DNA of 7,363 bases, from positions 1 through 7,363 of the forward strand of contig JASMLY010000005.1 of the NCBI GenBank assembly GCA_030748455.1, read 5' to 3'. Under the pieces are notes generated by a model, which saw only the letters and a list, made by a program, of their open reading frames with translations, made no database searches and was not told where the DNA came from. Shown here in pieces: positions 2,874 through 5,273 of this stretch (positions are counted from its first letter, which is position 1; every line of letters starts with the position of its first letter). This DNA is from Phycisphaerales bacterium (GTDB taxonomy: Bacteria; Planctomycetota; Phycisphaerae; Phycisphaerales; SM1A02). Both the position numbers and the translations under genes were made by a program.

Positions 2874-3140
2874 TCACCACTTATCTGCAAGTTCGTCAAT
2901 TTTGGATCGCTGACCACTCTTGGCGTGAGTGATCGTTGCAACAATAGAGATGGTGAGGGCAACGAATCCTAAGAGCCAAACAAACCAACCAGAGCCGGGC
3001 AAATTGTCATCTCCGATGAATCCAACAAACGCGATGATCGTGCCGAAAATCACAAAATAAAGGAGGAAGACTCGAAACATGTGCCCGAAACTCATTGGTG
3101 CATGGTGATTCGATTTTTTTTGTTTCTTTGTAGTAGACAT
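2874..3140 (-). CDS. Small two-helix membrane protein, function unknown
   Basis: I do not recognise this 88-residue protein. It has a basic, histidine-containing N terminus (KKQKKSNHH), a hydrophobic segment at about 21-43 (MFRVFLLYFVIFGTIIAFVG), a short polar turn DDNLPGS, a second hydrophobic segment at about 51-70, and a charged tail ending KIDELADKW. By the positive-inside rule, both ends probably face the cytoplasm. It is the first gene of a leftward three-gene operon, ending 4 bases before the dehydrogenase start, so it may be made together with those enzymes. The link in function is not obvious. AGAGAGGA lies just before the ATG and could be a ribosome-binding site, but it overlaps the predicted -10 box. 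The gene is supported by its composition, tight spacing and upstream promoter. Confidence 0.7.
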   Translation of the reverse strand: MSTTKKQKKSNHHAPMSFGHMFRVFLLYFVIFGTIIAFVGFIGDDNLPGSGWFVWLLGFVALTISIVATITHAKSGQRSKIDELADKW

Positions 3141-3142
3141 GG

Positions 3143-3178
3143 TTTCCTCTCTATAAAAAGGGGTCTCGTATACCCCAA
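3143..3178 (-). promoter_or_regulatory. Probable sigma-70-type promoter of the leftward operon
   Basis: Read leftward, TTGGGG (3178-3173) is followed after exactly 17 bases by TATAGA (3155-3150). This places the start of transcription near 3143, only about 3 bases before the ATG at 3140. The -35 box matches the consensus at 3 of 6 positions and the -10 box at 5 of 6. The -35 box lies inside the inverted repeat at 3168-3194, so a bound regulator could block polymerase there. Confidence 0.4.
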
Positions 3179-3194
3179 GGTGGGGTGAGTATAC
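3168..3194. repeat. Inverted repeat overlapping the operon -35 box (possible operator)
   Basis: GTATAC (3168-3173) and GTATAC (3189-3194) flank a core ACCCC-AAGGT-GGGGT (3172-3186) with 5 complementary base pairs. A GAGT insertion on the right arm makes the dyad asymmetric. Its place over the -35 box suggests a repressor site. It could also be a small hairpin in a transcript, but there is no U-tract to make it a terminator. Confidence 0.35.
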
Positions 3195-3271
3195 ATTCTA
3201 GTGCTCCTTTTCGCCTTTTTTTGAAAAATATCGAAGTTCACCGTTCACAATTTCATCGTGAGTACGTAGAA

Positions 3272-3499
3272 GGAGTGACCGCAGGAGTGGTTCCAACGAT
3301 TCCTTGGACCACTTCCCTTTGGTCACCTCCCCCGAAGCTTCAAACTGTTGCTTCAATGGACCATGAAGGTGCCTCCCTGAAATGAGGTGCCAGCAGCCTT
3401 TTCCTGAAGGTTGCCCCGAGTTCAGCCGCCGTTGGCCTACTCGGGCTTGTTTAAGCCGTGGACTTTGCGACCAGGATCGTCGCTAGCCGCTAAGACAAG
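3272..3499 (+). ncRNA. Candidate structured RNA, probably the 5' leader of the ECF sigma gene
   Basis: Six helices can be drawn almost end to end. H1: 3272-3280 with 3321-3330 (bulged C3327), continued inward by 3284-3290 with 3309-3316 and 3291-3295 with 3305-3308, about 20 base pairs in all. H2: GAAGC 3334-3338 with GCTTC 3350-3354. H3: 3368-3375 with 3384-3391, 8 pairs including two G-U. H4: 3393-3398 with 3409-3414. H5: CCCGAGT 3415-3421 with ACTCGGG 3439-3445, perfect, with an inner GCC/GGC. H6: 3446-3452 with 3493-3499, continued by 3454-3456 with 3489-3491, enclosing GCGAC/GTCGC (3467-3471 with 3479-3483). H3 to H6 follow each other with 0-1 base between. H6 covers the left part of the AAGGTGAG ribosome-binding site of the sigma gene. 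The stretch appears richer in G+C than the genes around it. It does not match the signature sequences I know for RNase P, tmRNA, SRP or common riboswitches. Strand is inferred from the downstream gene; it could instead be a free RNA. Confidence 0.4.
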
Positions 3500-3510
3500 G
3501 TGAGATTGCC

Positions 3511-4041
3511 GTGCCTGAACAAACATCCATCACAAACGATAGAGCAAACCGAGTTCTTGAACTTTTCGATTCTTATTACAAGCGAGTGTTCTGCTTTGCT
3601 CGAAAATCCTTAACAAATAATGCCGCTGAAGACATCGCACAAGAAGTGTTCACTCGTCTCCTCCAAGTCAAAGACCTTGAACAAAAAGAAATCTCTTCAA
3701 GTTATCTCATCAAAATCGCAGACAATCTCATTAAAAGGCGGTACAACAAAGAACAACGAAAAAACCGCTTTATCGACTCACAACGAGAAGATGCGATCCG
3801 TGACCTCCGCCGCCATGCAGACAAAGAGGAACCGCAGTGGTCCCCTGCCGAAATCACAAAAGCACTCGCGAGCCTTCCATCGCACGAACGCGATGCCGTT
3901 CGACTTGTCGTCTGCGAAGGTCTCAGTTACGACGAGGCATCCGCTTCACTTGGCGTTCCTGTTTCCACAGTGAACAATTGGAAATATCGTGGCATCAACA
4001 AGCTTAAGACGCTTGCAGAAAATGTCGACGAAGTAGCATAA
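3511..4041 (+). CDS. ECF-type RNA polymerase sigma factor
   Basis: This 176-residue protein has the two-domain plan of extracytoplasmic-function sigma factors. Region 2 spans about residues 16-82: LFDSYYKRVFCFARKSL, then DIAQEVFTRLL, the core-binding helix, then IKIADNLIKRRYNKEQRKNR for -10 recognition. A short charged linker follows (DKEEPQWSP). Region 4 spans about 114-166: ALASLPSHERDAVRLVV, then a helix-turn-helix YDEASASLGVPVSTVNNWKYR for -35 recognition. It directs RNA polymerase to a set of promoters unknown here. The start is GTG at 3511, preceded by AAGGTGAG 6 bases upstream, the best ribosome-binding site in the window. No anti-sigma or kinase gene lies next to it, so control must be elsewhere, possibly through the folded leader at 3272-3499. 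It is followed by a terminator hairpin and so is probably a single-gene unit. Confidence 0.93.
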   Translation: MPEQTSITNDRANRVLELFDSYYKRVFCFARKSLTNNAAEDIAQEVFTRLLQVKDLEQKEISSSYLIKIADNLIKRRYNKEQRKNRFIDSQREDAIRDLRRHADKEEPQWSPAEITKALASLPSHERDAVRLVVCEGLSYDEASASLGVPVSTVNNWKYRGINKLKTLAENVDEVA

Positions 4042-4062
4042 CGAGCAACATCATCCACCCGT

Positions 4063-4102
4063 CCGCACAGAGGCACCGACTCCCAAGTCCGCCTCTGTGT
4101 GG
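4063..4102 (+). terminator. Strong hairpin after the ECF sigma gene, probable terminator
   Basis: CCGCACAGAGGC (4063-4074) pairs with GCCTCTGTGTGG (4091-4102), 12 pairs with one G-U. An inner GACT/AGTC (4078-4081 with 4086-4089) closes a four-base loop. The hairpin starts 21 bases after the sigma-gene stop. The sequence after it, TATTTGTGAG, is only weakly T-rich, so termination may be partial or Rho-assisted. Confidence 0.55.
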
Positions 4103-4112
4103 TATTTGTGAG

Positions 4113-4170
4113 GGTCTGACCCCCGACATGACCCAAGGTCTGACCCCCGACATGACCCTCGACCTGACCC
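4113..4170. repeat. TGACCC repeat with 12-base period, upstream of pheA
   Basis: TGACCC occurs five times, at 4117, 4129, 4141, 4153 and 4165, each exactly 12 bases apart. Within this, a perfect 22-base direct repeat beginning GGTCTGACCCCCGAC spans 4113-4134 and 4137-4158. The other strand reads as GGGTCAGACC/GGGTCATG units, a type seen in intergenic repetitive elements of several bacteria. The period is four codons, so the frame into pheA stays open, but the encoded LTPD/MTQG repeats look like an accident rather than protein. Confidence 0.8.
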
Positions 4171-4181
4171 CAAGGTATCCT
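4152..4181 (+). promoter_or_regulatory. Possible pheA promoter partly made from the 12-base repeat
   Basis: TATCCT (4176-4181) stands 6 bases before the pheA ATG at 4188. ATGACC (4152-4157), part of the fourth repeat unit, is 18 bases upstream of it and matches the -35 consensus at 4 of 6 positions. Such a promoter would start transcription at or next to the ATG, giving an mRNA with no leader. No convincing ribosome-binding site precedes the ATG; GTGGG is immediately adjacent to it and too close. Confidence 0.35.
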
Positions 4182-4187
4182 AGTGGG

Positions 4188-5273
4188 ATGACGAACGAAC
4201 CTGAACAGTTAGATGGTCTACGCAGCAAGATCGACAAACTCGATCAACAACTCGTTGCTCTTCTTTCAGAGCGAGCCAACGTTGTAGTCGAGGTTGGGAA
4301 ACTGAAACGTGACAGCGAAACACCAATTTACGCGCCGCATCGAGAGCAAGAAGTCCTTGCAAGAGCCTTAGAACTCAATTCTGGTCCCCTCTCAGATAAA
4401 ACGATTGAAGCAATTTATCGAGAGTTGATGTCCGGTTCTTTCCAAATCGAAAAACCACTCGCCATTGCACACCTTGCACCGAAAGGGTCGTTCAGCCATA
4501 TTGCTGCAATTCGACACTTTGGTTCAAGCGTGGATTGTATTGGCGTTCCCACAATCGATCGGGTCTTTCGAGAAGTGGCAGCTGGACATTGCACCTATGG
4601 GCTCGTGCCGTATGAAAACTCCACAAGTGGTTCCGTCACCGACACACTCGATGCGTTCCAAGATCATGATGTTACTATTTATGCTGAAGCGTTGATTGAT
4701 ATCCGCCATTGCCTTCTCTGCAACGGCCCCACGTCTGACATCACCACGATTGCTTCAAAACCACAAGTGATGACGCAATGCCGAAAGTGGCTTGCAGCGA
4801 TGTATCCTGATGTCACCCTTATTGAAACTCCTAGCAGCGCAGAAGCTGTAAAGTTTGCCGCGGAAGATCCACACGTTGCAGCCATCGGCTCCCACCTTGC
4901 TGCGCACGAACATGGTGTTGAAATCGCTATCGAAAACGTACAAGACCGTGCTGAGAACATCACTCGTTTTTTAATTCTTGCAAAGGAAGAGGCGAAGCCT
5001 TCGGGTGATGACAAAACGACCATGATGTTCACAACAAAACACGAACCGGGCGCACTTGTTGATGTACTTGCTGCATTTCGTGACAATGGGATCAACCTCA
5101 GCCACATTGATAAACGCCCAAGCGGACGGGTCAATTGGAATTACACGTTTTACATTGATGCAGATGCGCACCGAGAAACTCCTGCATTGCAACAGGCAGC
5201 AAAAAATGCAGAACAATTCTGTAACTCAATTGAAATACTCGGTTCCTACCCCAAAGCAGGCCAAGTTTTATGA
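4188..5273 (+). CDS. pheA: Bifunctional chorismate mutase / prephenate dehydratase
   Basis: From the ATG at 4188 this is a 361-residue fused enzyme of phenylalanine synthesis, turning chorismate into prephenate and then phenylpyruvate in the cytoplasm. Residues about 8-85 are an AroQ-type all-helical chorismate mutase (LRSKIDKLDQQLVALLSERA, then KLKRD and HREQEVL). Residues about 91-265 are the prephenate dehydratase domain: AHLAPKGSFSHIAA at its start, VPYENSTSGSV (140-150), and NITRF (257-261) with the conserved catalytic Thr. Residues about 277-325 form an ACT regulatory domain (EPGALVDVLAAFRDNGINL, then HIDKRPS and NWNYTFYID), the expected site of phenylalanine feedback. The usual ESRP of this site reads DKRP here (308-311), probably a lineage variant. 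The frame is open back to an ATG at 4128, but those 20 codons are the 12-base repeat, so I start at 4188, where the mutase domain begins. Confidence 0.95.
   Translation: MTNEPEQLDGLRSKIDKLDQQLVALLSERANVVVEVGKLKRDSETPIYAPHREQEVLARALELNSGPLSDKTIEAIYRELMSGSFQIEKPLAIAHLAPKGSFSHIAAIRHFGSSVDCIGVPTIDRVFREVAAGHCTYGLVPYENSTSGSVTDTLDAFQDHDVTIYAEALIDIRHCLLCNGPTSDITTIASKPQVMTQCRKWLAAMYPDVTLIETPSSAEAVKFAAEDPHVAAIGSHLAAHEHGVEIAIENVQDRAENITRFLILAKEEAKPSGDDKTTMMFTTKHEPGALVDVLAAFRDNGINLSHIDKRPSGRVNWNYTFYIDADAHRETPALQQAAKNAEQFCNSIEILGSYPKAGQVL

Follow-up and report, generated by a model that had tools for sequence, protein, structure and literature searches.

The DNA analyzed here (the window, 7,363 nt of a Phycisphaerales bacterium) carries a conserved structured RNA directly before the gene of an ECF sigma factor. 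With a probability of roughly 0.93, this RNA is a cis-acting structured 5′ leader of that one ECF sigma gene in a marine Phycisphaerales lineage. Its structure is conserved through compensatory changes, and because the shape was kept while the letters changed, the leader probably helps decide the timing of sigma factor production. ECF sigma factors are mostly described as being restrained by anti-sigma proteins. No recognizable anti-sigma gene was found among the scanned neighbors of this sigma gene, as an earlier reading made from the letters of the window (the sequence-only reading) had also observed, and a conserved RNA leader on such a gene would provide the same control post-transcriptionally. 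To our knowledge, little RNA regulation has been described in the planctomycete phylum. The elements of the region are collected in Table 1.

Table 1. Features of the leader and the sigma gene (window positions).
Feature	Position	Strand	Description
Promoter-like box	3244..3269	+	TTCACAA-N15-GTAG, probably ECF type; conserved in close leaders
5′ bulged arm (first helix)	3272..3330	+	minimum-energy fold; variable in relatives
Small hairpin	3334..3354	+	3334-3338 with 3350-3354; fold; comparable hairpin in L001, L002, L009
Eight-pair helix	3368..3391	+	3368-3375 with 3384-3391; 99.1% of cells paired (14 leaders)
Variable-length helix	3393..3414	+	3393-3401 with 3406-3414; fold; length differs in relatives
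Hairpin A	3415..3445	+	3415-3421 with 3439-3445; inner 3425-3427 with 3434-3436
Strand able to pair with the ribosome-binding site	3446..3452	+	CUUGUUU; 7-pair duplex with 3493-3499 (closing helix)
Middle helix	3458..3490	+	3458-3461 with 3487-3490; bears hairpin B
Hairpin B	3467..3483	+	stem 3467-3471 with 3479-3483; loop CAGGATC 3472-3478 (conserved CANGA)
Ribosome-binding site	3497..3504	+	AAGGTGAG; AAG (3497-3499) in closing helix; openness 0.39
ECF sigma factor gene	3511..4041	+	GTG start, 176 aa; Pfam Sigma70_r2 and r4_2 above cut-off

The region from 3200 to 3510 folds at −115.5 kcal/mol, as compared with −89.65 ± 5.24 kcal/mol for 100 dinucleotide shuffles, none of which folded as well (z −4.93). 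In 37 leaders, the 200 bases immediately preceding the sigma gene have a mean z of −2.4 vs −1.1 for a segment of sigma coding sequence. The sequence-only reading had described a densely folded RNA at this place, with a perfect 7-pair helix, a long bulged arm and a last helix that takes up part of the ribosome-binding site, and all three were recovered (the outer helix of hairpin A, the first helix and the closing helix, respectively). Relatives likewise form a 5′ hairpin at the position of the first helix, as judged from the fold.

Upstream regions were taken from 40 distinct sigma homologs, and six belonging to more distant sigma homologs (L013, L014, L015, L016, L107, and L109) were left out before the family-wide counts; among these six, a CCANGA hairpin occurs only in L015. 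The close group comprises 14 leaders including that of the window (identity to the window 0.56–0.93), which were aligned without regard to structure and in which 38 pairs were counted. Here, 93.0% of 527 cells pair, as opposed to at best 42.0% when the partners are slid by 1–3 columns, and double-sided changes occur at 16 pairs (best slid arrangement, 5). In a tree-aware null, made by randomly re-dealing the substitutions of each column on the sigma-gene tree, the maximum double-change score in 1000 sets was 0.040 vs 0.127 for the close leaders, so that the compensatory changes which the sequence-only reading had proposed to look for are present in the homologs above all 1000 null sets. They are found in several helices: six of the six counted outer pairs of hairpin A and four pairs of the eight-pair helix changed on both sides, and the three counted pairs of the middle helix (columns 124–126 with 154–156) are paired in 100% of cells, with one double-changed. 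The variable-length helix covaries at its base (columns 36 with 78), and its inner part aligns poorly (61.5% of cells). A separate alignment of nine outer leaders has 97.5% of 161 cells paired; L101 and L116 were omitted from alignment A4 because MAFFT misplaced their stems. The same null was exceeded by hairpin B in 36 leaders (0.332 vs a maximum of 0.185 in 1000 sets; L133, a near-duplicate of L089, was excluded here and kept in the promoter and openness counts) and by hairpin A in 18 outer leaders (0.248 vs 0.150; L008 excluded).

Could this conservation reflect a protein? The leader as coding sequence or as an N-terminal extension of the sigma factor was rejected, as 13 of the 14 close leaders have an in-frame stop at most 180 bases upstream and the length differences among them are not multiples of three; some database sigma proteins do extend into the leader. 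A transcription attenuator was likewise ruled out by the plus strand of 3100–4200, which holds no intrinsic terminator-like site, in agreement with the earlier remark that a U-tract is missing.

The distribution of the leader argues for action in cis. Covariance models were built separately from the 14 close leaders (R1) and from nine outer leaders (R2, 85 positions), and both were searched in 181 whole genomes of the family at a threshold of E ≤ 0.01. In 35 of these genomes the sigma gene is present, defined by a match at E ≤ 1e-55. R1 identified 15 places, spread over 14 genomes, and R2 identified 16, each in a different genome; jointly these are 31 places in 29 of the 35 sigma-bearing genomes. 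By coordinates, each of the 31 is immediately followed by the sigma gene. None was found in the remaining 146 genomes, in searches where strict filters were used and only the top first-look candidates (7 to 24 a genome) were scored, so that weak copies elsewhere could be missed. Eight of the 31 places lie outside both training sets, namely G318 for R1 and G197, G006, G331, G220, G257, G261, and the C26 copy of G350 for R2; the second C24 copy of G350 repeats a training sequence and was not counted as held-out. For the six sigma-bearing genomes without a model match (G008, G010, G013, G237, G248, and G317), inspection by eye detects the hairpin B motif in every leader except that of G013. Each model is weak on the leaders of the other group: R1 matched L101, L116, L102, L092, and L093 at E 0.021–1.4, and R2 matched 9 of the 14 close-group sources at E 0.028–1.7. 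R1 also matched a non-leader place in L096 (E = 0.0013) and R2 one in L010 (E = 0.048). A search of 400 genomes from the order added six R1 matches at E 0.012–0.039, which were treated as chance; the one inspected (G295) has no sigma gene after it. Since the genome-wide matches at E ≤ 0.01 fall only directly before the sigma gene, the region is best read as a cis-acting 5′ leader of one sigma gene. Of the two possibilities that the sequence-only reading had raised, control in cis is thus strongly favored and a free RNA of about 230 bases is disfavored.

A promoter-like box precedes the leader (Table 1). In its exact form, TTCACAA-N15-RTAG, it occurs in 13 of the 14 close leaders (L113 has one mismatch) and directly upstream of the leader in 12/12 close genomes searched. 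The looser form CACA-N15/16-NRTAG, which was picked after the result for the strict form had been inspected, is present in 26 of 37 leaders vs 5 of 357 control windows of the same loci. The CGTA-like part of the box is taken by us to resemble an ECF promoter, and its position suggests that transcription would start near 3272–3277 and that the leader would be part of the sigma mRNA.

The 3′ half of the leader has a fixed order, in which hairpin A is followed by a pyrimidine-rich strand and hairpin B, and these by the ribosome-binding site and start codon. The loop of hairpin B, usually 7–8 bases long and closed by a C-G pair, starts with CANGA in 34 of 36 leaders. Because the hairpin was placed by its motif and best stem, pairing is favored and this count is partly circular. 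The N of CANGA takes all four letters and the stems vary freely; the two exceptions are L010, with one more C before CANGA and a bulge, and L115, with CAGGGA. Hairpin A, whose loops were marked after looking, as were the anti-site strands, has in the outer groups a loop of 7 bases closed by C-G, in which position 4 is G in 18/18 leaders and position 2 is A or G in 17/18. By eye, most hairpin A loops of the close group fit the same pattern, the exceptions being the window, L001, L113, and L088. From these loop letters, A/G-N-G tends to occupy equivalent positions in the two loops. The leader shows no clear repetition of CANGA: a 240-base leader holds 2.16 copies vs 0.97 in shuffles, and about one of these is hairpin B by definition.

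The hand-marked pyrimidine-rich strand forms a duplex with the ribosome-binding site of on average −6.42 kcal/mol in 36 leaders, as compared with −5.37 kcal/mol for mixed leaders and −3.67 kcal/mol for shuffles (500 sets, minimum −4.54). At a median of 13% of positions, another window of the leader pairs with the site equally well. The letters of strand and site differ together between groups (CUUG/CAAG, CCUC/GAGG, and CUUC/GAAG). Within either alignment (14 close and 9 outer leaders) the closing helix shows no compensatory change, and its core gives no covariation evidence because the core pairs are invariant within groups. In the window, the computed openness of the site is 0.39 vs 0.29 when shuffled. 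Computed at 37°C, the openness of the site falls below that obtained with shuffled upstream sequence in 20 of the 23 outer leaders and in 2 of the 14 close leaders. The earlier proposal that control is exerted by blocking the site therefore holds in part: the reduced openness in the outer leaders supports it, but in the window the closing helix takes only the AAG, and in its clade the core of the site is open. Because openness is reduced in only two close leaders, blocking alone is not the best account for the window.

We put at even odds a translational operator, bound by a putative RNA-binding factor at hairpins A and B. In this mechanism, the sigma mRNA starting near 3272–3277 would carry the leader, and the factor would recognize the two hairpins, whose C-G-closed loops mostly bear A/G-N-G and which flank the strand able to pair with the ribosome-binding site. 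Its binding would lock or open the arm at the site and thereby set the amount of sigma factor. The covariation, the fixed place before the sigma gene, the promoter-like box, the kept CANGA loop and the strand/site pairing are consistent with such an operator; the site that is no less open than in shuffles in 12 of the 14 close leaders and the invariance of the closing helix within groups argue against it, as do the marking of its strand by hand and the equally good pairing of other leader windows. The loop code would offer a handle for finding the bound factor, and the leader is compact, family-wide and suited to simple reporters.

mRNA leaders bound by CsrA/RsmA have hairpin loops beside the ribosome-binding site, often with two sites per dimer, and the CsrA motif is ANGGA, in which the GGA is needed. 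CsrA is a candidate for the factor because its gene is found in 15/15 genomes tested (G001–G012, G091, G101, and G350; loci L117–L119, L136, and L142), 14 of which have two paralogs. The second paralog has an insertion near the N-terminus (L136, L142) and presumably retains the RNA-contact residues, as judged by eye. In a special case of the operator, a CsrA paralog, perhaps with shifted specificity, would repress sigma translation, its dimer binding both hairpin loops and the ribosome-binding site. Two hairpins close together and beside the site, with loops of A-N-G-A or G-N-G, resemble a CsrA target. The leader differs in that its loop is ANGA in 34 of 36 leaders, one G short of the CsrA motif, with ANGGA in a hairpin loop only in L115, and in that CANGA is not clearly repeated, as mentioned above, which together make CsrA a doubtful candidate. 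More speculative, and unlikely, is a wider version in which, in this lineage, an mRNA operator would replace the usual protein anti-sigma switch and the duplicated CsrA would read the twin hairpins with a new A/G-N-G loop code; if true, sigma activity would be set at translation.

The leader could instead merely stabilize or insulate the mRNA, with no factor bound to it. The helices in the clade of the window stop just short of the open core of the ribosome-binding site, as such a role would allow. Stability alone needs no particular loop, however, and the CANGA letters are kept although the stems vary freely, so that we regard a purely structural role as improbable.

In Escherichia coli, the leader fold sets sigma translation in rpoH, by acting as a thermometer, and in rpoS, which is opened by an sRNA. 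The leader described here resembles these in being a 5′ fold that would set the translation of a sigma factor, and it differs from them in sigma class, phylum, and fold, with no link by sequence or Rfam model. An RNA thermometer or plain sequestration, where the arm closes the ribosome-binding site and heat melts it, would fit the 3′ arm that closes on the site and the reduced openness in the outer leaders. The open site core in the clade of the window and the kept CANGA loop, for which a thermometer has no need, make it quite unlikely. Still less credit is due to a metabolite riboswitch controlling translation. The leader is compact, conserved and ahead of a single gene, as a riboswitch would be, but few of its unpaired letters are conserved apart from those in the loops and in the arm close to the ribosome-binding site, its 5′ half is variable, and the gene encodes a regulator and not an enzyme or transporter. 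A separate trans-acting RNA from the same place, suggested by the strong fold and a promoter-like box of its own, is the least probable of all given that the sigma gene directly follows each of the 31 matches (E ≤ 0.01, 181 genomes) and that the plus strand has no terminator-like site.

Membership in a known Rfam class was ruled out: Rfam 15 gave no match at 3272–3499 up to E = 5, and searches along the full length of nine related loci, up to E = 1, gave none at the leaders. The comparison that the sequence-only reading had called for thus bears out its statement that no known RNA class is recognizable. Translation-controlling structured leaders are already known as a class, and this fold and loop signature at an ECF sigma gene matches nothing in Rfam 15. 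No such leader of a planctomycete ECF sigma gene appears in the parts of the open-licence literature covered here, which leaves its absence from print unproven. Passages of two genome surveys name no motif before an ECF sigma gene; their candidate RNAs are like the leader in that the evidence is a conserved structure before one gene, and one of them, Rhodopirellula-1, is listed in these passages for Planctomycetes without an Rfam number and is thus outside the Rfam comparison (PMC2864571, PMC11109978). Taken as a whole, the earlier interpretation stands for a conserved structured RNA before an ECF sigma gene, with action in cis strongly favored, is not supported for the free RNA and is left divided on blocking of the site.

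For the sigma protein of the window, 295 homologs were found, and its relatives sit in MAGs labeled Phycisphaerae, Phycisphaerales or Planctomycetota. The gene order in the window is a minus-strand pair (a saccharopine dehydrogenase-like gene and a gene for an 88-aa protein), the RNA region, the plus-strand sigma gene and, last, a gene for chorismate mutase/prephenate dehydratase. This order is conserved, with homologs of both minus-strand genes upstream in 12/12 close-group loci compared. The 88-aa protein (2877–3140, divergent from the sigma gene) is probably a two-helix membrane protein and has no match in Pfam and NCBIfam. Of the loci compared, 12/12 close-group and 0/8 outer ones have a homolog, so the protein does not accompany the RNA generally. 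Just upstream of its gene, the minus strand of 3160–3176 holds a terminator-like hairpin with a T-run (GGGG..CCCC TTTTT), which may be a leader element of the 88-aa gene.

No clear regulon is defined by the promoter-like box, judging from counts against controls. In 12 genomes, TTCACAA-N13/16-RTAG occurs no more often than its reversed control; a stricter form of the box has 48 sites vs 24 in the control (15 genomes), of which 14 are the sigma site. Some conserved extra sites fall in or at coding sequence. In three genomes (L137, L138, and L139), a conserved short frame of 80–99 aa lies downstream of TTCACAA-N16-ATAG, possibly a second gene with the box or else coding conservation.

The region has no match in the phage collection searched. 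One MAG (G350) has three sigma copies (L113, L133, and L134) with two leader types; two of the copies share a contig, in opposite orientations. This MAG may be a misassembled or mixed bin. GGTCTGACCCCCGACATGACCC is repeated at 4110–4175, in the interval that separates the sigma gene from the chorismate mutase gene, and GGTCTGACCCC is present in the leaders of L010 and L091 too.
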